The position numbers were made by a program, and so were the translations under genes. A stretch of DNA of 64,000 nucleotides, from assembly GCF_008727925.1 (NCBI RefSeq), contig NZ_VTWT01000004.1, forward strand, positions 310,001 to 374,000, written 5' to 3'. This DNA comes from Adhaeribacter soli. GTDB taxonomy: Bacteria; Bacteroidota; Bacteroidia; Cytophagales; Hymenobacteraceae. A model generated the notes under the pieces. It worked only from the letters and a program-made list of their open reading frames with translations. It was not told the DNA's origin and made no database searches. Position 1 is the first letter of the stretch. Each line of letters begins with the position of its first letter. This document shows positions 744 through 21,721 of the stretch, piece by piece.

Positions 744-1157
744 ATGCTTAGTTTAAACATTATATAAATGAGTGGCTAAGGTAATGTTAAATAATTAATT
801 AACAAAGGGGGTAGATTGAAATGGTGATTACCAGATTTAAAATGGAGCTACCAGCCTTAAAACCCGGAAAAGCAAAGTAGGTTAGTACAATGCCCGGATG
901 CTGAACGACCCCAATAAAGTAACTGTAGACCCCCTGAATGTAAATTATGGCAAGCGGAAAGAAGAAAGTAGAACGCCTCATTTCCGACCACCACAACCAT
1001 TCTTTCGGCAGCCTTATTGCCCTGCAAAAGTTCCGCGCCGTAGCCAAAAATGCAGGACTTAATCCAGCGCCGGCAGCAATCGGGTTTAACGGAAGAAGCG
1101 GAAGTTTTTTACGGGATCCCGGATTAACGCCAGACAGATAAACAGGTAGCTAAGGCT
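744..1157. other. Intergenic stretch without recognisable gene
   Basis: About 410 bases separate the left-edge BNR gene from the WG-repeat gene. Short open frames on both strands lack family resemblance, signal sequence or good context. The promoter of the BNR gene should lie here, but I see no convincing TAnnTTTG-type element. Confidence 0.5.
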
Positions 1158-2450
1158 TTATTTTACTAAATATTCCTTGCCATTTTTATCGATATAGAAG
1201 GTGTAATCTCCTTTGGAAACTAGGCAGAGGCCCTGCCGGAATCTGGGGCGGTCGCTGTAACTTTCCATATCATCAGAATCATACTGGCATTTGATCACTT
1301 CTTTACCGGTGGTATCAATAAAGCCGATTTTATCGTTTTGATCCTTTACCATAGCTAAACCTTCATAGAACATATCTACCATATTGAAATTCTCTCCGGT
1401 AATTTTTACTCCTTTTAGATTCATCAGGTAGTGAAATATGGTGATTGTGGAAGGATCTGAACTGCTACTTTTAAATTCGGAAGCAAGACAAAAACCATCT
1501 TTACATTTCTGCGGTACTCCTGAAAATTTACGGGTAGGAAGTATTGTTTCATCCTTCATATTTATAAAATGGGCATATAATTCCATTGGAAGTGCTTTCG
1601 AAACAGAGTCAACCACCATGGCTAAGCCATCGCCTAATAAAAGGAGCCGTTCGTATTTTAAGGGAATAATAAATTTCCCGGTACTATCTATTACACCAGC
1701 TTTATTGTTTAACGAAACTACCAGATAGCCATCCTGAATGCTTTTTAAGTCATACTTAACCGGTAAAATTTCTCTGCCTGTAGAATCTGCAAACCCTGAT
1801 TTTTGACTAATGACATGGATCAAATTGGAATTAAGGATTTGCACCTGAAAAAATTTCGGAGGAATAATTTCCCGGCCATACCGGTTTAGAAGACCTTGGC
1901 CACCAATTGGAAAGTTAGGGGAAGGGGCTTGAAAAACATGTAAACCATAATTGAAATCTGAGCCCCTCCAAAAAGGCCTGGGTTTATTTAACCTCTTTCC
2001 TGCTTTATCTATGATCACCCAGTTTTTACCTTCATCGATCAGAACTGCAGCTGCGCCATTACTGAAGTGAAAGCCCCGGTGGAACTGGGGTTTGATCTGC
2101 CATTGGCCTTTTTTATCCATATAACCAGTTAAACCGGACTTTGGATCTTTGGCCGGAATGAAACCTTCTAAGAAGGGCATTTCATCCACCAATTCATGAT
2201 CCGGACTGATGATGTAATTCCCTTTCTTATCGATGGTGCCGCGTTTTTTGTTGAGCCGGATAAAAGCATAATCGCCGGTAAAAAGTTCTGCCTGCTGGAA
2301 TTTCGGTTGAATGATGACCCTGCGGTTTTTATCCATATAACCCCACTTGCCATCCTTTTTAAAGGGTATGAGGTCTGGTAAACGCTGGGGAAAAGCGTTC
2401 GAAGCTACCAGCAGGAAGATGGTGAAGCAGGAAAGTAATTTATTTACCAT
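1158..2450 (-). CDS. WG-repeat protein, exported
   Basis: This 430-residue protein begins with a signal peptide (MVNKLLSCFTIFLLVASNAF, cleavage near FPQ). The remainder is built from degenerate WG (KWG) repeats, for example KWGYMDKNRRVIIQPKFQ, GTIDKKGNYIISP, KIGFIDTTGKEVIKCQYD and FYIDKNGKEY. WG repeats are common in Bacteroidota envelope proteins, and their molecular role is not established. It is a paralogue of the protein at 3464-5128 and is separated from it by a TonB-C protein in the same orientation, so the three may be co-transcribed. The predicted location is periplasmic or surface. The family assignment is secure; the function is unknown. Confidence 0.85.
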   Translation of the reverse strand: MVNKLLSCFTIFLLVASNAFPQRLPDLIPFKKDGKWGYMDKNRRVIIQPKFQQAELFTGDYAFIRLNKKRGTIDKKGNYIISPDHELVDEMPFLEGFIPAKDPKSGLTGYMDKKGQWQIKPQFHRGFHFSNGAAAVLIDEGKNWVIIDKAGKRLNKPRPFWRGSDFNYGLHVFQAPSPNFPIGGQGLLNRYGREIIPPKFFQVQILNSNLIHVISQKSGFADSTGREILPVKYDLKSIQDGYLVVSLNNKAGVIDSTGKFIIPLKYERLLLLGDGLAMVVDSVSKALPMELYAHFINMKDETILPTRKFSGVPQKCKDGFCLASEFKSSSSDPSTITIFHYLMNLKGVKITGENFNMVDMFYEGLAMVKDQNDKIGFIDTTGKEVIKCQYDSDDMESYSDRPRFRQGLCLVSKGDYTFYIDKNGKEYLVK

Positions 2451-2568
2451 TTCGCAGTTTCTCGGCTGGTTGGTTTAAAGTAAAAAGATTGCGTTTAGGA
2501 AGCACGATGGGCTATTTGCAATAAGTTTAATGGGAGAAAATCCGGTTAATTTTCCGCGAAAAACTGAC

Positions 2569-3402
2569 CTATTTCTTTTCGGCATTATCTAATCTGAACA
2601 TGATGGGCATGGTGTACCGCACGTGTACAGCTCGTCCGTTTTGCTTTCCAGGCGTCCAGACCGGCATGCTTTTTACCAACCGCATGGCTTCTTCATCGAT
2701 TTCTTTTCCCAGGCTTTTCAGGATGGAAACGTCTCTGATTTTACCGGTTTTGGTTACTACAAACTGCACGATGCTTCTGCCTTCTATTCCCTTCTCCTGG
2801 GCCGCGGCCGGGTATTGCAGGTTTTTGACCATGAATTCATACATGCGGGAGGTGCCCCCCGGAAATTCAGGGCTTTGCTCTACAAAAGAATAGATCTCCG
2901 TTAGTTCGCCTTCTTCTTCCGCTATTTCACCTGAGCCCTGGGCGGTAACCGTTACCGGCAGGTTTAAGCGCACGTTTACCGCCTGGCCGCCTTTTTTACC
3001 TGGACTCCATTGGGGCATTTTCCGGGCCGTTTCCAGCACTTTGGCATCAATTTCCGGGCTCAGGCCGGTAACGATACGCAGGTCCTTCGGCTGACCGTTT
3101 TTATCGATTATCAGGTTTAAGGTAACGGTGCCGGCAGAGGGGAAATTCTGCGTAATAAGCGCCTTCTTAAAGTATTCCTTCAGAGCCGTTTCACCACCCG
3201 GAAAGGCGGGCATCTGATCGGCAACCACATAAACTTTATCTTGGCCCTGGGCTTTCATAGCCGGGCTGCTTTGGGGTTTGGCCTGGGTTTTTGTTTTAGA
3301 ATGAGTTTGAGACTGCATTTTGGTTTTAGTTTGCTGGGCCCAGCCTGGTTGGCAAATGCTGCCACAGATAAAAAGTGATATACAAATAAGTTTTCTGGTC
3401 AT
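2569..3402 (-). CDS. Exported protein with two TonB C-terminal domains
   Basis: I place the start at the ATG complementary to 3400-3402, because it begins a signal peptide (MTRKLICISLFICGSICQ, then PGWAQ). The longer frame from 3459 would bury that signal. After a Lys/Gln/Thr-rich linker come two copies of a TonB-C domain. The first is marked by MPAFPGGETAL and MPQWSPGKKGG, the second by SPEFPGGTSRM and MPVWTPGKQNGRAV. Each carries the FPGG and W(S/T)PG motifs usual for Bacteroidota TonB-C domains. There is no N-terminal membrane anchor like that of classical TonB, so energy transduction is unlikely. A binding or scaffold role in the periplasm is more plausible. It lies between two WG-repeat genes with gaps of 61 and 118 bases. 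Confidence 0.8.
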   Translation of the reverse strand: MTRKLICISLFICGSICQPGWAQQTKTKMQSQTHSKTKTQAKPQSSPAMKAQGQDKVYVVADQMPAFPGGETALKEYFKKALITQNFPSAGTVTLNLIIDKNGQPKDLRIVTGLSPEIDAKVLETARKMPQWSPGKKGGQAVNVRLNLPVTVTAQGSGEIAEEEGELTEIYSFVEQSPEFPGGTSRMYEFMVKNLQYPAAAQEKGIEGRSIVQFVVTKTGKIRDVSILKSLGKEIDEEAMRLVKSMPVWTPGKQNGRAVHVRYTMPIMFRLDNAEKK

Positions 3403-3463
3403 TTTTAATATTGGTTTATTGGAAAGGTTTTCTGAGAATCGGTTCGATAGTTGAAGCACTTTT

Positions 3464-5128
3464 TCAGTCTTTGAAATACTGTTTTCCGTACCGGTCTATG
3501 TAGCCACTTTGAGATTTCCGGTAGTTGCATACCTTCATGAGGCCGTTTTTCCAGCCCTGGCAAGCGAAGTACTCTTTCGGGATCTGCGCCATTGGAATTA
3601 CTTCCTGGCCTTTGGTATTTATAATAGCCGTGTTGTTTTGTTTTCCGGCAACTGCAAGGCCATTCGTAAACGGACCAATGTGGGTGTAAACGATCGGGGT
3701 AATTTCTTCGCCGCTCTTATTTATTAAGCCATAAACCATAGGTCCGGTACGACCGGGTAATTGACCTACTTTAATAAGATCCGGCGCCAGGATTTCGATC
3801 CGTTCAAACATAAAGGGGATAATGGTTTTTCCTTTGGTATCGATCACACCCCACAGATTATCCTGCCGGACGGCGGCCATGCCGAAATGGAAATACGTGG
3901 CATCGAAATAATCCAGGGGTATCATGATCTTTCCTTCTTCGTTCACATAGCCCTTTTTATAGATCCTGTGAAACTCATCTACAGGTTTTACCGCAAGCCT
4001 TAAGCCGTCTTTCAGGGTATTGCTCATGTAAAACCCTTTGGTGGGGTTCACCTTGCCGGTTGCCGGGTTATAAAAGGCCTGGAATTTTTCATTTTCAAGG
4101 TACAGGATATAGCAATCTTCAACCGTGCTGTAAGAGATCTCCCGGTAAATAAAATCGGTAACTACCTTGCCTGTTCTGTCGATAATGCCCCAAAGGCTTT
4201 CCTTCTTTACAATTGCCAGCCCTTTCTGAAAAGGCGTTACGCCTTCGAAAGTCGCCGGGATTTCCAGCTTGTTTGCTTTATTGATGTATCCCCATTTCTG
4301 GTCCAGATACACGCCTGCCAAGCCCTCGGAAAAGTCCTGTCCGCTTTCATAGACCATGGGTATTACCACTTTGCCGGTTCGGTCGATAAAGCCCAGTTTG
4401 CGTTGGTGCACCAGCATTATAGGTTCTTTAGGCGCCCGAGGATCATGAAAAGCACTTGGTACATGGTGTTTTAAGGAGGGTATTTCGGTGCCATCTATTT
4501 TAAAAACGCTGGCATCGGCACCCTGGAAAACGCTGAAAAGGCCGCCCCCTAAATACACGATCTCATCATAGATCACTGGTAAAATAGGTTTGCCTTCGCG
4601 GCTGAAAAGCCCGGTTTTAGTATTCGTTCTCTTTATCCGGTTTTTTTGTTCTTCCCAGGTCAGGTCTTTGGGTTGGGTGGCTTTAATTACCGGAACATGC
4701 AGGTCTTTCAGCATTTCTACCGTTACCTTCTGGTACACGGCCGGAACAATTTCCTGCCCTTTCTGATCGATGATGCCGGAATTATAGTTGAAGGTAGAAA
4801 CCAGCGCCAACCCGTTTTCAAATTCATTGATGGTTTTGTAGCGGGGTTTTATAATTTCTTTTCCTTTTTCATCTATCAATCCCCAGGAAAGTGAGTCGGC
4901 GATCCGGGCTACGCTGCCTTCGAAGGGTTCTGCCTGCTTGTATTTGGGTTTTATTTTTATAGCCCCGGTACTGTCGGCATAGCCCCATAAAGTTCCTGCG
5001 CGAAAAGGGATGTGGGAGGGAAGCTTTAAGGAGGTGGCCTGGTTAAAGGCCTGGGGATTGGCTCTTGCTTCCAGTCCCGAACAAAACAGGGGTAAGAAAA
5101 GCAGGAAGCAGCTGGCCAAGGTTTTCAC
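3464..5128 (-). CDS. WG-repeat protein, exported
   Basis: This 554-residue protein has a signal peptide (MKTLASCFLLFLPLFCSGLE, then ARA) followed by roughly eleven WG repeats covering the whole chain. Typical units are LWGYADSTGAIKIKPKY, SWGLIDEKGKEIIKP, KLGFIDRTGKVVIPMVY and LWGVIDTKGKTIIPFMF. It is the first gene of a probable three-gene minus-strand group with the TonB-C protein and the second WG-repeat protein. The molecular role is unknown. An envelope location is inferred from the signal peptide. A MITE-like palindromic element lies just upstream. Confidence 0.85.
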   Translation of the reverse strand: MKTLASCFLLFLPLFCSGLEARANPQAFNQATSLKLPSHIPFRAGTLWGYADSTGAIKIKPKYKQAEPFEGSVARIADSLSWGLIDEKGKEIIKPRYKTINEFENGLALVSTFNYNSGIIDQKGQEIVPAVYQKVTVEMLKDLHVPVIKATQPKDLTWEEQKNRIKRTNTKTGLFSREGKPILPVIYDEIVYLGGGLFSVFQGADASVFKIDGTEIPSLKHHVPSAFHDPRAPKEPIMLVHQRKLGFIDRTGKVVIPMVYESGQDFSEGLAGVYLDQKWGYINKANKLEIPATFEGVTPFQKGLAIVKKESLWGIIDRTGKVVTDFIYREISYSTVEDCYILYLENEKFQAFYNPATGKVNPTKGFYMSNTLKDGLRLAVKPVDEFHRIYKKGYVNEEGKIMIPLDYFDATYFHFGMAAVRQDNLWGVIDTKGKTIIPFMFERIEILAPDLIKVGQLPGRTGPMVYGLINKSGEEITPIVYTHIGPFTNGLAVAGKQNNTAIINTKGQEVIPMAQIPKEYFACQGWKNGLMKVCNYRKSQSGYIDRYGKQYFKD

Positions 5129-5440: not shown

Positions 5441-6196
5441 TCACTTAATTTCTCCAACCTTCGGAATGATCTGAATTAGAAAACGCTGATTTAGTTTTTC
5501 GGTGGCATTCGATACCGATAGGTTGCGTTTATTTGGGTTGTAGCGCCCAACGCCGCCGTAGCCGGTACCGGCAATTACCAGCTCGATGGTTTCATGATAT
5601 TTCCGGCTATCGAAATCTACAATGCGGTTCGTTTTCCAGTAGTCGTAAAGCGATAAGGCGCGCTGGTAGCTTAGAATGTAGCCCCAGGTTTCGTAGTCGG
5701 TGTAGCAATAGTTGTCGTAGCCGCCCTGCAGACGGGCATCCCTTAAGTCTGAGGCGCTTCCGGTAATTACGAGCACGTACGACACGTTTTTCAGCACCGG
5801 GTCATTCTGGCGGCGGAGCATCAGGGAATCGACGATGGTTTTGAGTTTGCGGCCGGTATTGTTGATGTAGCGGAGCGATTGCTGCACGTTGCCTTCCAGG
5901 CTTTCCTGCGGCCGCGACAGATCCCATTTATTGCCTTTGAATTTTACGTCCTGGGCCAGGGTGTAGCGTTTAAATTGCGGGTCGTAGCGGAAGAGCGTTT
6001 TGTCGTTCATCATGGTGCTTACCGCCGACTGCAGTTCTTCGATCTTTTCCTTTTCCCGGATGGTAGCGATCAGTTTTTCTTCGTTGTTTTTGAAGCGGAT
6101 GTAACTGAGCACGAACATGACCAGCATCACCACGAAAAGCACGGTCATGAGGTCCACGTAGCTGGGCCAGAAAAAATCTCTATTTGATTTTTCCAT
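5441..6196 (-). CDS. MotB-like protein with divergent OmpA-type C-terminus
   Basis: This 251-residue protein has a short cytoplasmic N-terminus, then one membrane helix at about residues 17-34. The sequence SYVDLMTVLFVVMLVMF matches the MotB plug/TM signature, with the proton-binding Asp at residue 15. A helical linker follows, then a divergent OmpA-like domain retaining LSYQRAL (about two-thirds along) and a terminal NQRFLIQI, equivalent to the usual LSxxRA and NRRV positions. The expected partner is the MotA/TolQ-like protein just upstream, whose end overlaps this gene's start by 17 bases. By family analogy (MotAB, ExbBD, ZorAB) the pair forms an inner-membrane ion channel whose periplasmic domain may bind peptidoglycan. 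The peptidoglycan-binding residues are poorly conserved, so that binding is uncertain. Confidence 0.75.
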   Translation of the reverse strand: MEKSNRDFFWPSYVDLMTVLFVVMLVMFVLSYIRFKNNEEKLIATIREKEKIEELQSAVSTMMNDKTLFRYDPQFKRYTLAQDVKFKGNKWDLSRPQESLEGNVQQSLRYINNTGRKLKTIVDSLMLRRQNDPVLKNVSYVLVITGSASDLRDARLQGGYDNYCYTDYETWGYILSYQRALSLYDYWKTNRIVDFDSRKYHETIELVIAGTGYGGVGRYNPNKRNLSVSNATEKLNQRFLIQIIPKVGEIK

Positions 6197-7976
6197 GTTT
6201 GTTCTGTTCCAGTCCGAAAACTTTGTCCATGATAGCCTGCATGCGGTTGCGCTTGGTGGCTTCTTCCAGGATGCGGTTGGTTATCTGCAATTGCTCAGTT
6301 AAAGTGCGTTGTAATTGGGCATCCTGGTCGAGCTTCTGCAGCAGTTTTTCGTTCGTGATTTCTACTGTTTTAGCCAAGGCATTGTGCTGTTCGTTCAGTT
6401 GTTTTTGCTGCTCGTTCAGTTTGCCGAAAGGCTGCATGTAATCCAGGATTTTCTGGTAGATATTGTCCTGGTTCAGCTGATTGAAATGTTCCTGCCAGCG
6501 TTCGTAAGCGTTCTGCGCGTCGCGTTCCAACTGGTTCATCCGGATGTCCATGAACTGCTTCAGGCGGCTGGCATCTTCGTCGAAATTCTGTTCTACGCGG
6601 TTACCAATTTTGTCGAGTTCCTGTTTGTGGCGATCGAAGAATTGTACCTGCCGCATGATGGCTTCGTCGTGCTTGGCCAGGTAGCCGGGTACCATGTTGA
6701 AAGCTTCTTCCAGTTTGGTCATGCGCTGAAGCACTTCCTTTACTTTTCCGGCCATTTCGGTACCGTTTTGCAGCGTGTTGTTCAGCGCCTGCTGATAACC
6801 TAAAAAGCGGTTGAACATTTCTTCGCTTTCCTTTACCTTTTCGAAAACCGTGATGCTGGCAATGGCCATTTTGGTAAAACTTATTTCATCGAGGCGGTGA
6901 ATAAAATCTTTCTGTATGGAAATATTATCGGTAAGGCTGGCAATAATGGGGCGGAAGTTCGCTACCTTTTCCAAGAAATCGTGGTTGAAGGAATCGAGCA
7001 CCGATTTCAGGTTGCCGAGACTGGCGGCCATATCGGAATTAAGTTTCGGCAGCAGGCGTTTTTGCAGGAAGGTATAATAGCTGTTCTTCAGTTTGTCGCG
7101 ACGGCTGCGGGCATCTTTCAGCAACGCATTTCCGCGAAGCGTGAGCAGCAATCCGCAAAAGCTTCCCACCATGGCAATCACTACCCCGGTAAGAAAATTG
7201 CGGATGCCTTCGTCGGTAATGAACGAACTGGTTCCGGTGTCTGGAGTATCCGGTGCATCATGAAGCAAAAGGCTGAACAACCCAATGCTGACACCGAAAA
7301 ATGTACCGAGCAGACCGATGTACAAAGGCGTGGCAATGCCGGCCTGCACTTCGTTGTCAAGCGTTTCGGAATAGCGTTCGGAAATGTCTTTGAGGATGTT
7401 GAAATCTGCAGCGGCGCCTTTGTTATTCTCCAAATATTCGTTCGTATCGCTTACGATTTCGCCAAACTCCGGAGATGCGTTTCTGGCTTCTACCAAATCC
7501 ACTACCACCGCATTGATTTGGTTTATGGTGTGCTGAAAATGCTGTTCTTCGGTATTGAAAACCAGTTCGTTTACCAGCTTTACTTCGCCGGCATCAAGTT
7601 TCTTTTGCAGGTTTTGGGCGGAAACATGATACTCCTTTTTCGGCTTTTCCGGGTCGGTTTCCCTTACTTCCACTAGCAGGTAACTGCCATTATCTTCCAC
7701 TACCTTATGCGTGGTACCGGGCATTGCCGAATTGGTGAAAACTTCCCCGGCGACCATGGCATCGTAGGCATTTCGGTAAGAGCTTACCAAATGTTTTTTT
7801 TCGGGTTCTACCTGGCCGCGCTTATTTACGTCTACCTGCACGATGCTGAGGTTTTCCGGACTCGGAAAAAGCCCCGCAAGGCGGCTGATCCGGGTGCGGC
7901 TTTTTCCGAACACCACAAACTGCAGCGCGACAATACCGGCAATAATGAGAAGCTCGATGATGGAAATAATACCCAT
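6180..7976 (-). CDS. MotA/TolQ/ExbB-like channel protein with long coiled-coil tail
   Basis: This 598-residue protein has a membrane helix at residues 2-22 (IISIIELLIIAGIVALQFV) and a cytoplasmic region of about 190 residues. Two further helices follow at about 214-238 (ATPLYIGLLGTFFGVSIG) and 262-281 (LTGVVIAMVGSFCGLLLTL). The G-x-L-G-T-F-F-G segment and the second Gly/Ala-rich helix are the MotA/TolQ/ExbB channel signature. The remaining 300 residues or so are strongly helical, Gln/Glu/Lys-rich and coiled-coil-like, recalling the long intracellular tail of Zorya ZorA. It starts one base after the stop of the coiled-coil membrane protein and overlaps the MotB-like gene, so the three should be translated together. 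Predicted role: ion-driven stator subunit. What it drives is unknown. Confidence 0.75.
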   Translation of the reverse strand: MGIISIIELLIIAGIVALQFVVFGKSRTRISRLAGLFPSPENLSIVQVDVNKRGQVEPEKKHLVSSYRNAYDAMVAGEVFTNSAMPGTTHKVVEDNGSYLLVEVRETDPEKPKKEYHVSAQNLQKKLDAGEVKLVNELVFNTEEQHFQHTINQINAVVVDLVEARNASPEFGEIVSDTNEYLENNKGAAADFNILKDISERYSETLDNEVQAGIATPLYIGLLGTFFGVSIGLFSLLLHDAPDTPDTGTSSFITDEGIRNFLTGVVIAMVGSFCGLLLTLRGNALLKDARSRRDKLKNSYYTFLQKRLLPKLNSDMAASLGNLKSVLDSFNHDFLEKVANFRPIIASLTDNISIQKDFIHRLDEISFTKMAIASITVFEKVKESEEMFNRFLGYQQALNNTLQNGTEMAGKVKEVLQRMTKLEEAFNMVPGYLAKHDEAIMRQVQFFDRHKQELDKIGNRVEQNFDEDASRLKQFMDIRMNQLERDAQNAYERWQEHFNQLNQDNIYQKILDYMQPFGKLNEQQKQLNEQHNALAKTVEITNEKLLQKLDQDAQLQRTLTEQLQITNRILEEATKRNRMQAIMDKVFGLEQNKHGKIK

Positions 7977-7977
7977 G

Positions 7978-9297
7978 TTAGGCTAAGTGTATTTTGGCGC
8001 GTTTGGTAATTTGCCAGCCCTGCGCCGTTTTGGTTAATTCGCCGTCGGCCACGTTTACGAGTTGGGTGGCTTTGTTAGCCGAACGGGCAAATTCAAAGGC
8101 GTTTTCGAGCCGGTCTAAACTATTGTTGATGGCCAGCGCGTGGTTTACGTGCGGATTGATGCGGAACCTGGCCGTATTGCTGCCATTTTCCGGCAAGGTA
8201 ACTTCAATAAACGACCAGGTATCGCGGTTGTCGTAGTGCAGGTCGCGTTCTTTTAACTGGCCGTCTTCCGGCACGCGGGTATATTTCACTTGGTTCTGGA
8301 CCGGTGTTTCTTCGGCAAATAAATGATCGGTTTCCAAGGTGAAATTTTCCTGCGATGCATTGTTTTCGGCCGGATATTCCGGTTGGGCTGCAGCTTGGTT
8401 TTGCGGAGCAGGACTATTTGAAGCAAGGTCGTATCTTTCTGCTACTTGTGGAGCCGCATAAGCCTTTTTTTTCAGATCCTGGATAGCGTTATGCATTTCC
8501 GCGCGCCAGTTTTCGTTTTCCCTTTTCAGGTTGTTGTAGGCTTTTTTCAGGCTTTCAATTTCCTTTTTCAGAGCATTTACGTGCTGGTTCCCCGTGTTAC
8601 TCTGCACCGGTTTTCCAACTGCATTGGCATAGCCTTCGGAAGTTCTGGCCGGAGGCATCGCACGGCTGCTTTTACGGGAGGAACGATAGAAGGCTAAAGT
8701 TGCTAACAGCAAGGCGGCAATACTGATCACATTAAAAAGCATATTCGGTTCTTCTTTAACGGTTTTTACTTCGCTGGCTGGCGCGGAAGGCACCGGTACA
8801 TTTTCGGGTTCCTGCGTGGCCGCATTCGCTGCTGTTGTCAGGTTTTCTTCCGGGTTTTCAGGCTGATCATCTGGCGGTACTGTTGCTAAGTTTTTCGAGG
8901 CAGCTTTTTCTAATTCCAGTCTTAAGTTCTCCACTTTTCGATCCGGTTTTTTGGCAGCTTCCGCCATGATAGCTTCGATCAGCATTTCATCGGAAACCGG
9001 TTGGTTTTTTCTGAGTTTCTCCTGAACCGGCTGGTACATGCGTGTGTAGAAATTATATTCGTCCTGTCTGGCTTTGGAAGCTGCGGCCAAATTCTTTTCA
9101 AACTGTTCTACACTTTCTTGGCTGACTTTGGGTACCGGTTTTTGGTTGTCTTTCGGTAGCGTTTTGTTGTTGTCTTCGTAGATCCATTGCAGGGCCTGGT
9201 ACCAAATTTTTACCTGGTTTGCAGAGGTGTTCTGCTGGGCTGTGGCTGTAGCAGAACTGAAGCAAAAAATGTAAAGGAGTATTGAAAAGTATCGCAT
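7978..9297 (-). CDS. Single-span membrane protein with periplasmic and coiled-coil domains
   Basis: This 439-residue protein of unknown family has a signal peptide (MRYFSILLYIFCFSSATATA, then QQ) and a mostly helical exported segment to about residue 185. Its Pro/Glu-rich stretch ends just before a membrane helix at about 186-205 (LFNVISIAALLLATLAFY), which is followed by positive charges (RSSRKSSR). The cytoplasmic part has a coiled coil at about 243-275 (LKKEIESLKKAYNNLKREN), a Gln/Ala/Asn-rich linker and a compact C-terminal domain with a WSFIEVTLPENG motif. It appears to be a bridge between periplasm and cytoplasm. It is followed after one base by the MotA-like gene and belongs to the same block. 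A palindromic element lies three bases before its start codon. Confidence 0.6.
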   Translation of the reverse strand: MRYFSILLYIFCFSSATATAQQNTSANQVKIWYQALQWIYEDNNKTLPKDNQKPVPKVSQESVEQFEKNLAAASKARQDEYNFYTRMYQPVQEKLRKNQPVSDEMLIEAIMAEAAKKPDRKVENLRLELEKAASKNLATVPPDDQPENPEENLTTAANAATQEPENVPVPSAPASEVKTVKEEPNMLFNVISIAALLLATLAFYRSSRKSSRAMPPARTSEGYANAVGKPVQSNTGNQHVNALKKEIESLKKAYNNLKRENENWRAEMHNAIQDLKKKAYAAPQVAERYDLASNSPAPQNQAAAQPEYPAENNASQENFTLETDHLFAEETPVQNQVKYTRVPEDGQLKERDLHYDNRDTWSFIEVTLPENGSNTARFRINPHVNHALAINNSLDRLENAFEFARSANKATQLVNVADGELTKTAQGWQITKRAKIHLA

Positions 9298-9752: not shown

Positions 9753-12700
9753 TCAAGCCGTTTCCCTTATTGCTTTGCGGCTATAGAGCTCTTTGGAGAG
9801 GGCGTACAGCGCCTGCTTGAACGGCAGGAAGAACAGCGTTTCGTGCAGCATTTCCTGATCCGGCAATTGCTTGTCCAAATGGTTGAGGCCAATGGATAAG
9901 CTGTCGGCCATTTGCTCCCGCAGGAACGGGATTACCATTTCGGCGTCGAACTCGATGCCGAGGTCTTTCATCATTGGAGCAATGTCGTCGTCAAGCAGCA
10001 GCAGTTCGATGCAGGCTTTCACGTTTTCCAGCACATGGTTCTTGATTTCTGAGGTTAGCGTGCCTTTTTTGATGCCCTTCAGGTTGGCGCTGTCATCTGT
10101 TGTGCCAAGCGGGGTGATGATCGGAATGTCCGGTTGGTTAGCGGAGCTTTCGTCGTTTACGGAAAGCACACCGCCGTTAGCCGTAGTTTGCTTCGGATGA
10201 TCTACCAGCACAATTTTGAAATTGCCCGGCGCTTCCTGTCCGGTAACTTTCTGCAGAATTGCTTTGGTCAGTTTTTCGATGCCGGAAAGGTTTGCGCCGG
10301 CAGCCAGGATCTTGATGTACAAGCTTCCGCGGCCGGAGAAACAAATGTAGCGCGGCACGTTCAGGCCGGATGCTTTTATGGTTTGCGCCAGCTGGTAAAT
10401 GATGGCGCCGTAGTGTAAATAGAACATTAAGCGCATCGGGCGGGCCTGCTGCAGCATTTTGCTGTAGCTGAACACGTCGTCGTAATTGAACATCAAACTT
10501 ACCACATCCGAAGAGCCGAAACTGTTGTTGTTCAGGGCGCTTTGCAGGTATTTCATAAACTCGTACTGGTTACCGGAAAGCGGCATGTTCATGATCTGGT
10601 CGCGGCCGTATTGCATCAGGCCGTTGTCTTTGCCGCCGCGCACCATCGCAAAACCGTCGCCCCAGAGGTCGTCGCCGGCAAAGCGGTACGAGAAGCTGTA
10701 GGCCGGCCGCTGGTTGGCATACAGCAGCACGTCGGTGGTACCACCGCCTATGTCGATGTTCACCAGGCCTTCTTCGCGGCTTGGCACCACGGTTCCTTTC
10801 TGCATGAGGTAGTAATACGGCGCCACCGATTCGGTAATGCAAATGGTACCCCGGTTGGTTTTGAAAACTTTCTGATACGCTTCGTCCCATTCGTTCTGGA
10901 ACAGGTTGCGGGAGAAGGAATTAAAACTCAGCGGCGCAAACCAAACTACTTTCGTGTTCTCAATAACTCCGCCGTTCAGTGCCGCCTTGTTTTTCAAAAG
11001 CAACATCAACTCGCGGAAGTATGCGTGAATTCTTCTTTGACCGGCAGCGTGCAAGGTTTCCGACCACTTCAGATCGGTGTGGTAATGTTCGTAGGCATCG
11101 GCATCGGTGTTCATGGTGAAGCCGATGTTGATGTTGCCGAAAATGGACGTCGGCTGGTTCACGAATCCCGGCGATTCGCAGGTGGCGGTGCGGGTCGGGA
11201 ATTGGTAAGGCGAGCCGCCGTCGTTCATAATGGCCGGCAGGAATTCGCGTTTGGTCAGGGTTTCGGCGGACGTTAATTTGCCGAAACCTTTTTGTACGTA
11301 ACGCTGGTAATCGGTCAGGCCCGGTTCGGAACTTGGCTTGTTCAGCATTACGAGTTGCAGGTCTTTGGCCGAAATCGAGAACGGTTTCGGTTCCTGGTTC
11401 GGAGAATCGGTGTAGGCAATGTAGGTGTTGGTGGTACCAAAATCGACGGCAAACGTGAAACTTTTCGTGCCACGGTGAATTTCCTGGTAGCGGGGTACAA
11501 ACAAACCTTTGCCGTTGAATTTGCCCGGGCAGGTAACTTCCGCGAAATCGAAATGCGTACCTTCCACTTCGTAATATTTGCTACCTACACTTTGCTCGCT
11601 TTTCACGGAACGCTCGGTTACGGTAGCGCGCATGCTGCCGCCTTCCGCCGTTAACGCCTGGTTATCTACAAAGAATTTCAGGTGATATTGCTTCGTGAGC
11701 ATACCCGGCTGCAGCTCTTCGTCGATCAGCATTACTTTGTAGAAATCGTTGTATTGCGGCTGGTCGGTGAGCTTGTAGAACGGGAAAATACCGATGCCGA
11801 TCTCCGCTTTTTCGATCTTGCCTTTTTCCGGAATTTCTTTCCCGTTGGCATCTTTCGGGTTCTGCGGTGAAGTGTAATATTTCCGTTCGAACTCGATAAG
11901 CGTGCCGTTGGAAACCGGAATTTTCAGACTCACTTTTACGTGGTTGATGTCGATGAAAAACGTCAGTTGGTCAGCCAGATCTTTTTCGGTGAAATACTGG
12001 AAATAGGTGCTGGTAACCGGCAGTAGATACGAGAAGTTTTTCTCCGCGCCGGGCTGGTAGGTTACGTTGCCGCAAAAGAATCGTTCCTGGTTAACTTCGT
12101 AGGGCAGTTCAATAAGCGTTTCTTCCAGAAAATCGTTGATGGTAAGGTATGGGTAACGGACGCTTTTTCCGGGCAGGGTTCTTTCGTCTAACACCCGCGC
12201 ATCGGCATACGGCACTTCGTCGCCGGTTTTGTCTTCCCACAGGAATTTGTTCAGGTATTTGGTTTGGCCAACCAGCTTCAGTTTCGGTTTGAGCACAATT
12301 GGCAAACGCTCGGAGATCTGGCGGCTCGGACGAATGAACAGGTCGCTGTCGATGGTGTCGGAAGTTTGTTTTCCCTGGATCAGGAAAGGGAAATGTCCGG
12401 CGCTAACCGGGTTTCCTTCCTGGTCGCGCAGGCTGCCGTATTTGTTCAGCACGGCTTCTCGGGTGCTGCCGCCGTTCATCGCAATCATGTTCAGGCGGCT
12501 TTGCTCCAGCACGTGGTAAACGGCCGGGTAACGCACCGGGAAATCGGAAAACGCGGTGAATAATTCGTACACAAAATCGCGGAAAGCGGTGTCACGTTCT
12601 TCCAGCGGCACGAACTGATTATCGAAATATTTGCCTTTGCTTTGCAGCCTTTCAATGTTCAGCGCCCGTACGTTTGGCGACACAAAAAGCAGGGTAAACG

Positions 12701-13205
12701 GTGAAGTTCCGCCTAAGAGCTGCTGCTGTTTTTCGCCCTGCGCGTTGGTGTTTTCGAGGTAGAAAAAGTACAGGTCGGAGAAGTCGCGGAAACGGTTATC
12801 GGAAGCGGCAAAAAGTTGCAGCGTATCGCCGAGAAGTTTGCTTCCCTGGTTCGCCTGCATCTGCGCAATTTCCTTTTCCTTGTTCCAGCGGCGCACCAGA
12901 ATGCGCTGGTCGGCCTGCATGTACAAGTCGTGGTTGAAAAGCAATTCCCACAGATCCCAGAACTGCGATACCATTTTATGGTACACGGTATTGGGCTGCA
13001 AACCTTTTTCGCGCGCTACAAAATCGAAAGCGGTTTCGAAAAGGTGCATGCGCGCAAACGGCGTGGGAATGGAGGTGCTGAGCTTGGTCGCTTTGGCGCC
13101 GGCGCCGTCCGGAATATCTTTAATTTCGGTGCTGGTAAGCTGGTTGGTTTGCTGCCAGCCTTCCACGTTTAACCCTAACTGATGAAGACGAAGTACTTTT
13201 GGCAT
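9753..13205 (-). CDS. Large actin/Hsp70-fold (ASKHA) ATPase, SrfB-like
   Basis: This 1150-residue protein carries a complete set of actin/Hsp70 nucleotide-binding motifs in its second half. Phosphate-1 is FAVDFGTTNTYIA with Asp588, phosphate-2 is NIDIGGGTTDVLL with the key Asp at 818, and the adenosine motif is ICFSGRGSLY from 956. The first 580 residues or so are unlike any family I recognise. No signal peptide or membrane helix is present, so it should be cytoplasmic. Its size and layout recall proteins annotated as virulence factor SrfB, but that link is from memory and needs a profile search. It lies between the tubulin-like gene and the membrane block, all on the same strand. A filament-forming or conformational ATPase role is inferred. 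Confidence 0.7.
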   Translation of the reverse strand: MPKVLRLHQLGLNVEGWQQTNQLTSTEIKDIPDGAGAKATKLSTSIPTPFARMHLFETAFDFVAREKGLQPNTVYHKMVSQFWDLWELLFNHDLYMQADQRILVRRWNKEKEIAQMQANQGSKLLGDTLQLFAASDNRFRDFSDLYFFYLENTNAQGEKQQQLLGGTSPFTLLFVSPNVRALNIERLQSKGKYFDNQFVPLEERDTAFRDFVYELFTAFSDFPVRYPAVYHVLEQSRLNMIAMNGGSTREAVLNKYGSLRDQEGNPVSAGHFPFLIQGKQTSDTIDSDLFIRPSRQISERLPIVLKPKLKLVGQTKYLNKFLWEDKTGDEVPYADARVLDERTLPGKSVRYPYLTINDFLEETLIELPYEVNQERFFCGNVTYQPGAEKNFSYLLPVTSTYFQYFTEKDLADQLTFFIDINHVKVSLKIPVSNGTLIEFERKYYTSPQNPKDANGKEIPEKGKIEKAEIGIGIFPFYKLTDQPQYNDFYKVMLIDEELQPGMLTKQYHLKFFVDNQALTAEGGSMRATVTERSVKSEQSVGSKYYEVEGTHFDFAEVTCPGKFNGKGLFVPRYQEIHRGTKSFTFAVDFGTTNTYIAYTDSPNQEPKPFSISAKDLQLVMLNKPSSEPGLTDYQRYVQKGFGKLTSAETLTKREFLPAIMNDGGSPYQFPTRTATCESPGFVNQPTSIFGNINIGFTMNTDADAYEHYHTDLKWSETLHAAGQRRIHAYFRELMLLLKNKAALNGGVIENTKVVWFAPLSFNSFSRNLFQNEWDEAYQKVFKTNRGTICITESVAPYYYLMQKGTVVPSREEGLVNIDIGGGTTDVLLYANQRPAYSFSYRFAGDDLWGDGFAMVRGGKDNGLMQYGRDQIMNMPLSGNQYEFMKYLQSALNNNSFGSSDVVSLMFNYDDVFSYSKMLQQARPMRLMFYLHYGAIIYQLAQTIKASGLNVPRYICFSGRGSLYIKILAAGANLSGIEKLTKAILQKVTGQEAPGNFKIVLVDHPKQTTANGGVLSVNDESSANQPDIPIITPLGTTDDSANLKGIKKGTLTSEIKNHVLENVKACIELLLLDDDIAPMMKDLGIEFDAEMVIPFLREQMADSLSIGLNHLDKQLPDQEMLHETLFFLPFKQALYALSKELYSRKAIRETA

Positions 13206-13611: not shown

Positions 13612-15072
13612 TTACTGGTATTTGAGCTTTTCCTCTACCATATTTTTGGTGGCACCTTCGAAGATCTTAATGACCCGCTTGAAAGTGTCAGGTTCTGTTT
13701 CCTTGATGTTCAGGTTGCCGATTTCTTTTAAAATGGTTTTCGGTTTCAGGCCACTATCGAAGAAGCTGCTTTCGATGGTTTTGTCGGCTACCATGCGGTT
13801 GAAATCTTTTTCTTCGGGGTTGATGGCTTCGAAGGTGCGTTTGTTCTGGCGCAGCTCTTTGAGCCAGGCGTGGAAACCGTATTGCGGCGAGCGTAAAAAC
13901 TGCTGCAGTTCTTTGAAAACCGCTTCGTTGCGCATGGCGCTGCCCAGGTTTGTGGCTTTGAAATAAGGCGCATCAGTATCCTGCGGCGCGTGCTCGGTGA
14001 AGTACTGGTCGAAGTAGTTGAAACGGATCAGGTCTCTGGCAATCTTGTCTTTGCTTTCAGTTCCTAAATGGCTGAAGTGGATGTTTTTGGCATCTTCTTT
14101 CAGGCCGTATTCATGGAAGTGCATTTCGCCCTGCAGCTGGTCCGGGGAGTAATCCATGAAATCGACAATGGCCAGGGCGCTGAGCAGTTCGATTAAATGT
14201 GCTTCGTTTTGCTGCGCGGCCCGGCCGGGATGGTTTTCCAGCGGCTTTTCCGGGGTATCGCCAATATAATAGAGCGCATTCAGCGACTGTAAATTATTCT
14301 GGTAGTACGAAAGCGCGGCTTTAGTTTTGGTAATGAAGGTGTTGGAATCGATGAAATCCTGCGCTTCCGGGTTGCCGTCGGTGGCGGGTTGTTCCAGGGA
14401 AAAATACGGCAGTACCGTGATGGCGCCCATTAAGGCGTGGTTCAGGTAACCGGAATTTGGCAGACCGGAATTCGGGTCGCGGAAGTTTTTAAGCAGCAGC
14501 GGGAAGCCGGCAGCGCCGGTGCCGCCGAAAATTGAACTGATGAAAAATACGCGGTCGCCTTGCTGGAAATTGGTGGCAAAGTAGCGGATAAGGTCCGAGT
14601 TCATGATGTCGTTCAGCACTACGCTACCAACGTTCGGGCTGCCGCGGAAACCCACGTCGAGACTGTTGCTCAGGTTTTCATCGGTGAACAAAAGATCTAC
14701 CAACGCTTTGCTGTCAACAGACAGTTGGGTGTAGTTGATGAACTCGCGGAAGCTTTTGTTTTTGCCGCTGAAGTTGTACACGAAACTATCCGGAATGTTG
14801 CCGTCTGTTCTTCCGGCTACACTCGCTAACGTAGAAATATCCTGGTGGAAAAAACCTTCCGGACGAGAGCCCAAATGGTTGTGAATGCGCTTGTAGGTTT
14901 TGAGCAATTCCACGGTTCGGTTCATGTCGCCGTTCTGTGAATCCGGGTCGATGATGATGGGAACGATCTTGTCGCAATTCTGAATTTTTACGCCCGCGGC
15001 CATGAGCATGGTAAAGGCGCGAATTACGCGGGAGCCGGTGCCCCCGATTCCAAATATAAACAGCTTTGCCAT
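13612..15072 (-). CDS. Tubulin/FtsZ-superfamily-like GTPase
   Basis: This 486-residue protein opens MAKLFIFGIGGTGSRVIRAF, a Rossmann-type glycine loop as at the start of FtsZ and tubulin. It carries a second glycine-rich signature, FFISSIFGGTGAAGFPLL, with GGTGA at residues 183-187, corresponding to the tubulin T4 loop (GGGTG[ST]G). An acidic IIIDPDS segment sits between them, as expected for the T3 region. No membrane segment or signal peptide is present. It matches what I know as the Pfam Tubulin_2 (tubulin-like) type. GTP binding is predicted and polymerisation is possible. It follows the 3-TM gene by four bases. The C-terminal 200 residues are unassigned. Confidence 0.72.
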   Translation of the reverse strand: MAKLFIFGIGGTGSRVIRAFTMLMAAGVKIQNCDKIVPIIIDPDSQNGDMNRTVELLKTYKRIHNHLGSRPEGFFHQDISTLASVAGRTDGNIPDSFVYNFSGKNKSFREFINYTQLSVDSKALVDLLFTDENLSNSLDVGFRGSPNVGSVVLNDIMNSDLIRYFATNFQQGDRVFFISSIFGGTGAAGFPLLLKNFRDPNSGLPNSGYLNHALMGAITVLPYFSLEQPATDGNPEAQDFIDSNTFITKTKAALSYYQNNLQSLNALYYIGDTPEKPLENHPGRAAQQNEAHLIELLSALAIVDFMDYSPDQLQGEMHFHEYGLKEDAKNIHFSHLGTESKDKIARDLIRFNYFDQYFTEHAPQDTDAPYFKATNLGSAMRNEAVFKELQQFLRSPQYGFHAWLKELRQNKRTFEAINPEEKDFNRMVADKTIESSFFDSGLKPKTILKEIGNLNIKETEPDTFKRVIKIFEGATKNMVEEKLKYQ

Positions 15073-15076
15073 AAGG

Positions 15077-15484
15077 TTATTTGTTAGGCCATTTTACCGG
15101 CGTAGTATAAGCGAATGTTGATTTGCCTTTCAGCAGTAAAGAGAAAATGAGGTAAGCCAGTACGCTGTAAAACGCATTCAGCATGGCCAGCCAGGAAATG
15201 TAAGAGTGCGCTTCCACGCCTTCGCGGTTGGCGTAAAAGGCGGTCATTAAACCAACTACTACGGCATTTAAAACCAGCACGATTACCCAGTGGGAAGTGC
15301 GGTAGAAGCCGGTATTCAGCGCGCGGTTCAGTACGTAGTAGTAAACCACCACCATGATCAGGGAACAAAGCAGCATGAAAATGCCGGCGTTCGGGAAAAT
15401 AACGTCGCGGTACACCAGCGTTTCCTGCGGGGGCTGCGGACTGCCGAGCAATCCTTCGTAGAGGCCGGAAAAGAACTTAATCAT
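15077..15484 (-). CDS. Small three-helix membrane protein
   Basis: This 135-residue protein has a cytoplasmic-looking N-terminus (MIKFFSGLYEGLLGSPQPP). Three predicted membrane helices follow at about residues 33-54 (AGIFMLLCSLIMVVVYYYV), 66-85 (WVIVLVLNAVVVGLMTAFY) and 98-118 (WLAMLNAFYSVLAYLIFSLL). No family is recognised. Its start overlaps the end of the lipoprotein gene by eight bases, and the tubulin-like gene follows four bases after its stop, which strongly suggests translational coupling. A plausible role is to anchor the tubulin-like protein at the inner membrane, but that is inference only. Confidence 0.7.
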   Translation of the reverse strand: MIKFFSGLYEGLLGSPQPPQETLVYRDVIFPNAGIFMLLCSLIMVVVYYYVLNRALNTGFYRTSHWVIVLVLNAVVVGLMTAFYANREGVEAHSYISWLAMLNAFYSVLAYLIFSLLLKGKSTFAYTTPVKWPNK

Positions 15485-16820
15485 TTGCGTTTTTTATGAA
15501 GTTGAGAGAGAAAGAGAATACGTTGCGTTGCTCCGAATAAAGGCTTTGCACACCGGCCAGCACCTCATTCAGCCTGAACGTTTTTCCCGGCTGGGCAGCA
15601 GGGTTATTGTCGTTCTGCGTGGTCCATTGGTTAACCCAGTCGGCGGGCTTTTCCGGGAGCGTGAAAGTGAGCTGTCCGGATTTGGCCGTAACCTGGGTGA
15701 TGCGGACGCGGATCAGGTGCGAATATTTTTCCTGGGCCGGGTCTTTTGCATCTGCTTTCTTTACCGAAATAATTGTGCCAGAAAATCCTTTACCATTTAG
15801 TTCCAAATTCTTTTTCAAAAATTCAGCATTTTGTATGGGCTCGGGAAATGCGTTCAGATTTACGCCGACTTCAAATTCAACGGGCGTATCTTTCTGAGGA
15901 CCAATGGTTACCGATTTGCAGCCTTCGGTTGGTTTTCGTTCGGAGCAATACACGTTTCCGGAAGGCTTCAATTTGGTTAAGGCTACATAAGCAGGTTCAG
16001 AATAATTGAAACCGAAGTGCGCCTGCTGCTGCGGGTGGTTTTTAAATACTTTCTGGTTGAATAGAATCACTTCTTCCTGCGGGCCGATCACCCACACGTA
16101 GTATGGCATTTTTACGTTGGTCAGCTGGCGTTTGGCAACCGGTTGCTTTACGGCCGGGTGAAAAGAACCGGTGAAATTGGATTGATCACCGAATACGGAA
16201 ACTACCAGGTTTTTATCCTGCGCTTCGTTTAAAGCGCCACGAATTAATTGCGGAATAATGTTGAATTTGCTTTTGTCGGCGGGGCCGTAAACGAAGTCGG
16301 AAATGATCACGGAAACGGCTTTGCTTTTACCGGATTCTTTCAGGATCTGCTCCAGCATTTCCGGTAGTTCGGTGCCCAAAGCCGGGTTTTGGATGCCGGC
16401 GCTTACCGTTTTCAGTACTTCGGGATAAGTGCTTTTCTGCAGCTGGGAGGTACCGTTTTTTTCTCTTATGAAATAGAAATCTTTGCTTTGGATCGCTTTG
16501 GAATAATTCACTTCCGTGAGCAGGCCCGCTACTTTTTTCTGAAAATTCGTAGCATCGGAACCCGCCCCGCCTTTCGGCATAAAACCGACCATGCCGCCCG
16601 AAACTTCCAGGAATAGGTTCACTTTCGGGATGCTGGTGATTTGCTTTTCGGTTGGTTGCGCGGGTTTAGCAGCTGGTCCTTTTTCGGTGCCGGAAAATAC
16701 CGTTTGGGTTGGTTCAGTTGCATCAGTTTCGGCCTGGCGGTCTTTGCGGGAAAAGCAGGAAACCTGCAGCATCAGAAAAACGAGGAGGAGCGGGAAAAAC
16801 AATCGGGAAGTTCTTCGCAT
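15477..16820 (-). CDS. Lipoprotein with von Willebrand A-like domain
   Basis: This 447-residue protein begins with a lipoprotein signal (FFPLLLVFLMLQVSC, lipidated Cys in VSCFS). After a Thr/Glu/Pro-rich linker comes NLFLEVSGGMVGFM, which aligns with the first vWA strand and its DxSxSM metal site. Here the acidic first residue is Glu and the serines are mostly replaced by Gly. Later VSVIISDFVYGP resembles the vWA segment leading to the third metal-site Asp. The metal-binding site therefore looks partly degraded. The C-terminal 200 residues are likely beta-rich and unassigned. It is the first gene of the block with the 3-TM and tubulin-like genes. Orientation at the outer or inner membrane cannot be decided. 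Confidence 0.65.
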   Translation of the reverse strand: MRRTSRLFFPLLLVFLMLQVSCFSRKDRQAETDATEPTQTVFSGTEKGPAAKPAQPTEKQITSIPKVNLFLEVSGGMVGFMPKGGAGSDATNFQKKVAGLLTEVNYSKAIQSKDFYFIREKNGTSQLQKSTYPEVLKTVSAGIQNPALGTELPEMLEQILKESGKSKAVSVIISDFVYGPADKSKFNIIPQLIRGALNEAQDKNLVVSVFGDQSNFTGSFHPAVKQPVAKRQLTNVKMPYYVWVIGPQEEVILFNQKVFKNHPQQQAHFGFNYSEPAYVALTKLKPSGNVYCSERKPTEGCKSVTIGPQKDTPVEFEVGVNLNAFPEPIQNAEFLKKNLELNGKGFSGTIISVKKADAKDPAQEKYSHLIRVRITQVTAKSGQLTFTLPEKPADWVNQWTTQNDNNPAAQPGKTFRLNEVLAGVQSLYSEQRNVFSFSLNFIKNAND

Positions 16821-21500: not shown

Positions 21501-21721
21501 CCCTCATGCTCTCTACTGGGGCAGGCGCCACCGGAAACCGCTCCATTGGTACAGGGGCCGTAGGGGGCATGCTCATCGGTACCTTGATCGGGGTGTTTGT
21601 AATACCTGTTTTGTATGTGATTTTTCAGGCCCTGCAGGAACGCATAAGTGGTAAGCCGGAACAGCCCCTGACTGAGAACTTAAACCCGGACAATGGCCCA
21701 GCTCCTGAAAAGCCTGCCTGA
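18548..21721 (+). pseudogene. RND (HAE1) multidrug efflux permease interrupted by two in-frame stops
   Basis: All three open segments (18548-19042, 19088-20842, 20852-21721) are in one frame and together make a full-length RND permease of 1057 codons. TAA at 19040 sits in INLVP-stop-IKRVTGVGEA, and TAG at 20840 sits in FGK-stop-YRVMYQAEP. In homologues I know, Gln is expected at both places, so CAA became TAA and CAG became TAG. Otherwise the protein looks intact: MFNRFIDQPVLS start, proton-relay AIGIVVDDAIVVVEA, and LIGLLAKNAILIVEFA with the conserved Lys. There is no frameshift or deletion. The options are a recently inactivated gene, suppressed stops or sequence error. The adaptor before it and the channel after it are intact. 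Confidence 0.9.

Follow-up and report, generated by a model that had tools for sequence, protein, structure and literature searches.

What could a membrane motor resembling that of the Zorya defence system be doing in an operon with relatives of tubulin and actin? The question is raised by a locus of Adhaeribacter soli, where seven genes lie head to tail on the minus strand, from position 16820 down to 5441 (reading of the open reading frames), of a stretch of 64,000 nucleotides (NZ_VTWT01000004.1, positions 310,001-374,000). We refer to this whole stretch as the window, and all its coordinates are window positions. In order, the operon encodes a vWA-like lipoprotein, a small membrane protein, a tubulin/FtsZ-fold protein, an actin/Hsp70-fold protein, a membrane coiled-coil protein, and the ZorA-like and ZorB-like subunits of the motor, here called motor A (598 aa; 6180-7976, minus strand) and motor B (251 aa; 5441-6196, minus strand). 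A Zorya-type ion-driven motor has probably been recruited here into a vertically inherited envelope machine of the FtsZl1 type.

Flagella, type 9 secretion, gliding and Ton uptake are all driven by motors of this kind, which also act in Zorya defence (PMC11890865). An earlier description of the locus, made from its letters alone (the sequence-only reading), had proposed a ZorAB-like stator with a conserved channel Asp and a long intracellular tail. The open reading frames are as it described them. Motor A lies one base after the coiled-coil gene and overlaps motor B by 17 bases. The pair is a MotA/MotB-superfamily motor.

The N-terminus of motor B reads DFFWPSYVDLMTVLF and places the segment SYVDLMTVLF, with Asp15, in its membrane helix. 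In a sequence alignment with E. coli MotB this residue falls on Asp32, as had been proposed. No other residue stands there in any of 16 family members or of the 73 aligned B subunits, the latter set taking in the more distant locus L057 and two DarT-linked subunits discussed below. When the motor B profile was compared with PDB sequences, the three best matches were Zorya ZorB chains (8vvn, E 1.6e-9, positions 5-211; 8qyd, E 6e-5; 8vvi, E 0.0019), and the first MotB came after these at E 0.17. PADLOC identifies motor B as ZorB1 (E 2.1e-9, residues 9-111). In Pfam, PF13677 (MotB_plug) scores 13.7 bits, below its cut-off of 24, and there is no ExbD/TolR match at E up to 1.

HHalign was applied to small groups of sequences, namely 11 pairs from cassettes like that of the window, 2 DarT-linked pairs, 3 of Zorya I, 1 of Zorya III, 1 from genome G506, 2 MotAB pairs, and a TolQR/ExbBD-type group with 4 sequences for A and 2 for B. 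For motor B it gave 97% with Zorya I (E 1e-10), 93% with Zorya III, 57% with G506, 1.3% with MotB and 0.4% with TolR/ExbD; the corresponding values for motor A were 80% with Zorya I, 54% with TolQ/ExbB, 19% with Zorya III, 12% with MotA and 0.2% with G506. Controls with reversed profiles reached at most 26% for motor A and 6% for motor B. By sequence, motor B thus lies nearest to Zorya ZorB, not to TolR/ExbD or flagellar MotB. On the same HHalign values, together with the silence of PF01618 for motor A and the sub-threshold PF13677 for motor B, a flagellar stator was rejected. A Ton/Tol motor was set aside as well, motor B having no match to TolR/ExbD and two MotA_ExbB-family proteins sitting elsewhere in the genome. 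The same holds for a gliding motor: motor A gives no TIGR03513 match at E up to 1, and a separate GldL above the cut-off is encoded elsewhere in the genome.

Motor A has helices at approximately residues 3-22, 217-239 and 262-282, with a cytoplasmic part after the N-terminal helix and a tail at 285-598. The last two helices carry the motifs GLLGTFFG and AMVGSFCG. Along the presumed ion path, T225 is found in 79 of 80 aligned sequences (Ser once) and S272 in all 80; these are presumably the polar residues expected around the channel Asp, where Zorya has a ring of Ser/Thr (PMC11890865). The final membrane helix ends near residue 282, leaving a tail of 314 residues. The coiled-coil tail of about 300 residues claimed earlier is borne out by its heptad power (period 3.5, residues 285-598), which is 90.0 against 85.5 for the 99.9th percentile of 1000 shuffles, the shuffles being credited with the best of three periods. 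The AlphaFold2 model of the subunit places helices over most of residues 255-587, with a predicted local distance difference test (pLDDT) score of only 37-77 past residue 330. PADLOC matches of motor A to ZorA are weak, the best one (E 2e-4) lying in the tail. Motor A also contains an extra beta-rich cytoplasmic part, at about residues 43-155 (window 7510-7850, minus strand), which is largely absent in several members of the Hymenobacter group.

The OmpA-like domain of motor B spans approximately residues 135-246, so that the fold expected of a ZorB is present; its peptidoglycan pocket is altered. The pocket residues considered are the His and Asp of GHTD, the Leu and Arg of LSxxRA and the Arg of NRR. 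L175, R179 and R238 occur in 73 of 73 sequences, while the pocket His and Asp occur in none: the His position holds R, M, S, Y, Q or N; at the Asp position stands A or S. In ZorB of Zorya I, mutating His186, Leu199, Arg203, Arg254 or Arg259 abolishes peptidoglycan binding, as does mutating His141, Ser143, Arg215 or Arg230 in ZorB of Zorya II, where Ser143 stands at the pocket Asp position (PMC11890865). The pocket also varies among the other proteins compared, with GFTD in Zorya loci L206 and L207 and GHTD in L208 as well as in G506. Since none of the compared Zorya proteins lacks both residues, the joint loss of His and Asp is, on this alignment, a mark of the clade studied here. Classic peptidoglycan binding, which the sequence-only reading had named as a property of ZorB, is therefore doubtful, although the Leu and Arg residues are kept. 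We infer that the domain may bind peptidoglycan in a different way or may hold another ligand, for example the lipoprotein of the operon.

The partner genes had been described as encoding cytoskeletal-fold proteins, and this description fits. Gene 3 (13612-15072, minus strand; 486 aa) encodes a putative tubulin/FtsZ-fold protein of FtsZl1/Tubulin_2-like type with the loop IFGGTGAAG, the GGTG of which is invariant in 16 of 16 members. By itself it falls below the Pfam cut-offs (PF00091, E 3e-4; PF13809, E 0.0045). Its family profile matches a Gloeothece gene annotated as tubulin-like with E 7.9e-48, and because this gene passes PF13809 (40.7 versus 27 bits), gene 3 can be linked to the FtsZl1 family. 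Gene 4 (9753-13205, minus strand; 1150 aa) begins with some 570 aa rich in beta structure and also contains an actin/Hsp70-fold ATPase with the motifs DFGTTN and DIGGGTTD, the nucleotide motif cores being invariant in 9 of 9 sequences. Its AlphaFold2 model (pLDDT 73.9) matches an integrative DnaK model (E 5.7e-9) and an MreB crystal structure (E 1.1e-8) in a Foldseek search of the PDB. The gene is flanked by gaps of 406 and 455 bases, and Rfam, at its gathering threshold, reports no RNA element in window 1-24500, which includes both gaps.

The operon is a fixed unit in the Hymenobacteraceae. In 20 of 20 regions of 16-20 kb from other genomes of the family, the lipoprotein, tubulin-like, actin-like, coiled-coil and motor A genes occur in the same order; the caller reported the small membrane gene for 17 regions and motor B for 19, probably missing the remainder because of overlapping open reading frames. 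The flanking genes vary among these regions. Among the 80 best named loci, all seven genes (E 1e-10) are present in 55, motor A in 76 and motor B in 69, several of the contigs ending early. By NCBI family label, 77 of the 80 belong to Hymenobacteraceae and two to Cesiribacteraceae, and Solirubrum has no label. Cesiribacter sp. SM1 has all seven genes and the other Cesiribacteraceae locus six.

Motor A is present in 171 of 200 Hymenobacteraceae genomes and in all six genera. Twenty of the 29 motor-less genomes (one of the 20 is 78% complete) were searched with the tubulin-like profile, which finds the gene in four family genomes; none of the 20 contained it. In Hymenobacter, a gene cluster reading like a sugar-nucleotide synthase recurs within the nearest three upstream reading frames (24 of 49 loci); downstream, the nearest three frames include a cluster reading like a prolyl oligopeptidase in 21 of 41 loci. 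For about half of the loci this suggests inheritance at a single chromosomal site. Because the motor is fixed in a seven-gene unit with tubulin- and actin-like proteins, it would seem to have a second, putative job at the cell envelope, and its near-core distribution in the family speaks more for a role at the envelope than for phage defence.

The usual partners of ZorAB are not found beside this motor, as the sequence-only reading had also stated. When the seven proteins of the operon are scanned with PADLOC, allowing E up to 1, the matches are ZorA, ZorB and one CARF at 0.06, with no ZorC-G; five neighbour proteins give nothing at 0.001, and Pfam finds no DUF3348, DUF2894 or HNH in ten window proteins. 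The same PADLOC scan recovers ZorC and ZorD in the Zorya locus L206. In the tree of A subunits, the cassette and DarT-linked pairs form one group (support 94/98) and MotA with TolQ/ExbB another (97/92, starred). The tree of B subunits, which left out TolR and ExbD, again groups the cassette and DarT-linked pairs (94/86) on long branches, one of them the truncated, 191-aa B subunit of L209. A distinct use of the same motor, as first suggested for this locus, remains the best reading because motor B is Zorya-like, the trees set the pair apart from MotA and TolQ/ExbB, ZorC-G are not found and the operon with its tubulin- and actin-fold genes is fixed. Compared with Zorya I-III (ZorAB with ZorCD, ZorE or ZorFG), the window operon shares the channel Asp, the polar residues, the long cytoplasmic A tail and the OmpA-like B domain, and differs in its tubulin/actin-fold partners, the loss of the pocket His and Asp, and its near-core status in one family.

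Several observations weigh against the recruitment of a Zorya-type motor into such a machine. The first concern motor A. PF01618 (MotA_ExbB) does not match it in Pfam, and its profile finds no motor among PDB sequences (best E 0.21). In the fold search with the model, the top 24 of the 50 listed matches are all TolQ, ExbB or ZorA (Z 8.8-11.4), the next having Z 8.1 and below; six ZorA chains (Z 8.8-11.1) tie with TolQ/ExbB at Z about 11, and PomA and MotA chains are found lower, at Z 7.3-7.7, a range common for helical models. Helical models can reach Z of about 11 by chance, so the agreement among matches counts more than the value, and the match is modest by Foldseek too (best E 5e-4, low TM-scores). 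By the fold of its model, motor A alone is not distinguishable from TolQ/ExbB. The deep branches of the A tree are long, and they leave the position of the cassette and DarT group relative to Zorya unsettled; firm placement inside Zorya is thus lacking as well, although the trees do not place the pair in TolQR/ExbBD or MotAB.

A further difficulty comes from related operons. Eight operons with a tubulin-fold gene (L184-L186, L188, L189, L195, L196 and L197) contain no motor by the profiles used; L195 belongs to Prevotella, and L196 and L197 to cyanobacterial plasmids. Hence the tubulin/actin-fold nucleoside triphosphatase (NTPase) pair does not need the motor. On the tree of tubulin genes, which included L058 only as its larger open piece and left L187 unscored for the motor (contig end), the presence of the motor takes 4 changes, at least 3 of them forced by well-supported branches. 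The existence of motor-less operons and these changes indicate that the motor is a module, apparently either gained by or lost from a lipoprotein-tubulin-actin core. In two of the motor-less operons other genes take its place: L188 has an OmpA protein (7016-7825; Pfam, E 6e-17), and L189 has an OmpA protein, by reading, and TerD proteins (987-4063; one TerD by Pfam, E 4e-51).

The same fold tie bears on a Tol/Ton-like force transducer, in which the motor would affect the outer membrane by pulling on a periplasmic partner, the lipoprotein or the coiled-coil protein, while the cytoplasmic proteins would only regulate it. The fold and three-helix layout of motor A fit TolQ/ExbB as well as ZorA, one product of the operon is a lipoprotein and another a membrane protein that has a periplasmic part, and a TonB-C gene lies downstream at 2569-3459. 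We nevertheless regard such a transducer as unlikely, since motor B is unlike TolR/ExbD (the 0.4% above, from two sequences compared) and carries a domain of OmpA-like type, the 314-residue tail faces the cytoplasm, and the TonB-C gene is found in 0 of 20 other loci, one of which ends right after motor B; the gene context differs from that of TolQR/ExbBD as well.

Outside the family, 395 genomes of the phylum were scanned with few candidates scored per genome, so that absence there is no proof. The motor A profile matches 6 of the 395, namely four in the family plus G556 and G586. The more distant G556 (L057) carries all seven genes, its motor A having 25% identity. In G586, a metagenome-assembled genome with 13% contamination, the cassette (L058, 8750-11567) lacks the actin-like gene, a stop interrupts its tubulin gene, and its motor A and B genes are partial, through either decay or assembly error. 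This genome is also the only match of a broad motor A profile among 98 genomes of the order of G366. The tubulin-like profile matches 13 of the 395 phylum genomes. Long actin-like matches occur in eight phylum genomes and in G289 (cut at the contig end), and all nine carry the tubulin gene; the actin-like profile matches 248 of the 395, and besides the eight long ones, G289 and a weak one in G506, the matches listed are short and lie at the FtsA/MreB motif.

In G506, a second tubulin/actin-fold operon (L190, 6829-18198) has a different motor pair at its two ends. Its B subunit carries the GHTD pocket and matches ZorB3 in PADLOC (E 1.8e-27), and its A-like protein has weak ZorA matches (best 1.2e-8); this pair is not close to the window motor by HHalign. 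The motor B profile matches 3 of 16 chosen genomes, the G506 match being another gene than the B gene of the operon, which was found by local search (E 7.5e-6). Because the motor of this operon is a different one, with a Zorya III-like B subunit, motors may have been paired with tubulin/actin-fold proteins on more than one occasion.

Outside tubulin/actin operons, the nearest A/B pairs found have other partners. In a Parabacteroides distasonis plasmid record (L194, 10523-14645) and in a viral contig (L201, 7762-11946), the gene order is DarT, DUF6939, ZorA-like, ZorB-like. HHalign gave 100% between the cassette and these DarT-linked pairs (E 6e-48 for A, 2e-46 for B). DarT was recognised as PF14487 (E 4.5e-30 and 1e-26, respectively), and the DUF6939 protein shows sub-threshold similarity to the DarT-associated NADAR antitoxin. 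The L194 pair lies on a mobile island and has an integrase upstream; a methylase, a ResIII/TnsA-like protein and a UvrD/PDDEXK protein are nearby in L201. The L194 B subunit had no match in a phage collection. Judged from these two loci, DarT-DUF6939-ZorAB resembles a defence unit that employs this type of motor with another partner, here not cytoskeletal-fold genes. It is possibly undescribed so far; Zorya and DarTG are named as separate systems in PMC12255303, PMC9519451, PMC11811056 and PMC10286901.

These units and the kinship with Zorya are why we keep defence as a serious rival, namely that the whole operon is an anti-phage variant of Zorya, in which the motor would sense envelope damage and the tubulin/actin-fold proteins would serve as effector or relay. 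Besides the Zorya-like motor B and the DarT-linked surroundings of the nearest motors, the TerD protein of the related operon L189 argues for it, as do operons with tubulin, HSP70 and vWA proteins that Kaur et al. (PMC7159879) describe and predict to act in conflict. Such a variant is possible, though we think it rather improbable, because 171 of 200 genomes have the motor, its chromosomal site being partly fixed, which is unlike a patchy defence system, and because PADLOC and Pfam find no ZorC-G and the inspected neighbours are WG-repeat, TonB-C, efflux and phosphate-uptake genes.

If the motor does serve an envelope machine, its working may be pictured as follows. The A subunits would surround a dimer of B in a 5:2 assembly, and ion flow past Asp15 would turn the A ring. 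The lipoprotein and the membrane coiled-coil protein could sense or hold something in the periplasm, where motor B would anchor the axle through its altered OmpA-like domain. The turning ring would carry the long cytoplasmic tail round, and the tail might then drive, recruit or release the tubulin- and actin-fold NTPases under the membrane. A stronger form of this, that a rotary motor powered by proton or sodium motive force acts directly on the tubulin/actin-fold assembly through its tail, we put forward as speculation with little likelihood. Alternatively, the motor proteins might serve only as a gated ion channel, collapsing the membrane potential with neither rotation nor a link to the NTPases. 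ZorAB was itself given such a role in an early proposal (quoted in PMC8565338), and the channel residues are conserved, yet this leaves the conserved tail and the fixed operon unexplained, and we consider it the least probable of the explanations discussed.

Related gene combinations have been described. The FtsZl1 system (PMC2875224), for which Makarova and Koonin in 2010 proposed membrane remodelling, joins an FtsZ/tubulin-fold protein with vWA-type and membrane proteins, with OmpA-family proteins in several genomes, a combination that the window operon appears to share; the window operon differs in having a full A/B motor pair and the 1150-aa actin-fold partner. The main text of that article, as available, has 0 matches for 'MotB', 'proton' or 'HSP70', and the OmpA genes of its operons could include motor B subunits. 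The GTPase-centric conflict systems of PMC7159879 likewise unite tubulin-, HSP70- and vWA-type proteins in one operon, whereas the window operon has no recognised GTPase beyond the tubulin-fold protein; 'MotA' has 0 matches in the main text of that article as available. A survey of MotAB (PMC12505986) omitted ZorAB from its tree. Among the titles and abstracts listed from the open-licence literature, none joins ZorAB with FtsZl1.

If the reading of an envelope machine is true, the stable association of such a motor with both a tubulin-fold and an actin-fold protein in one operon would be a candidate case of ion-driven cytoskeletal coupling in bacteria and, to our knowledge, the first one. The question of coupling is testable in cultured Hymenobacter, Rufibacter or Adhaeribacter. 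The DarT-linked pairs moreover suggest a modular motor, able to combine with various partners, and this has implications for the origin of Zorya.

The operon has three other genes. Gene 1 (15477-16820, minus strand) specifies a 447-aa lipoprotein, with a lipobox (LQVSC) read from the sequence and a degenerate vWA-like domain. There is no Pfam match, vWA included, and the label comes from motifs only: ExSxG stands where DxSxS is expected, Thr91 and Asp175 are retained, and in an alignment of 10 members E72, S74, T91, S174 and D175 are kept, so that the MIDAS-like motif is preserved in part. Gene 2 (15077-15484, minus strand; 135 aa) has about three predicted membrane helices by alignment and occupies the same position in 17 of 20 loci. 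Gene 5 (7978-9297, minus strand; 439 aa), by reading, has a signal peptide, a periplasmic part, one membrane helix and a coiled coil; its C-terminal 100 or so residues are conserved in the alignment. Its identity with the nearest relative is 66%, as against 96% and 95% for the tubulin- and actin-fold genes of that relative.

Two WG-repeat proteins and the double TonB-C protein adjoin the operon at 1158-5128 (minus strand). They were rejected as members, being found in 0 of 20 other loci, of which L028 ends right after motor B. The other window neighbours inspected are, by reading, efflux and phosphate-uptake genes. At 18548-21721 (plus strand), a gene that reads as a resistance-nodulation-division (RND) efflux permease is divided by two in-frame stops into three open pieces of the same frame, and the genes adjoining it look intact.

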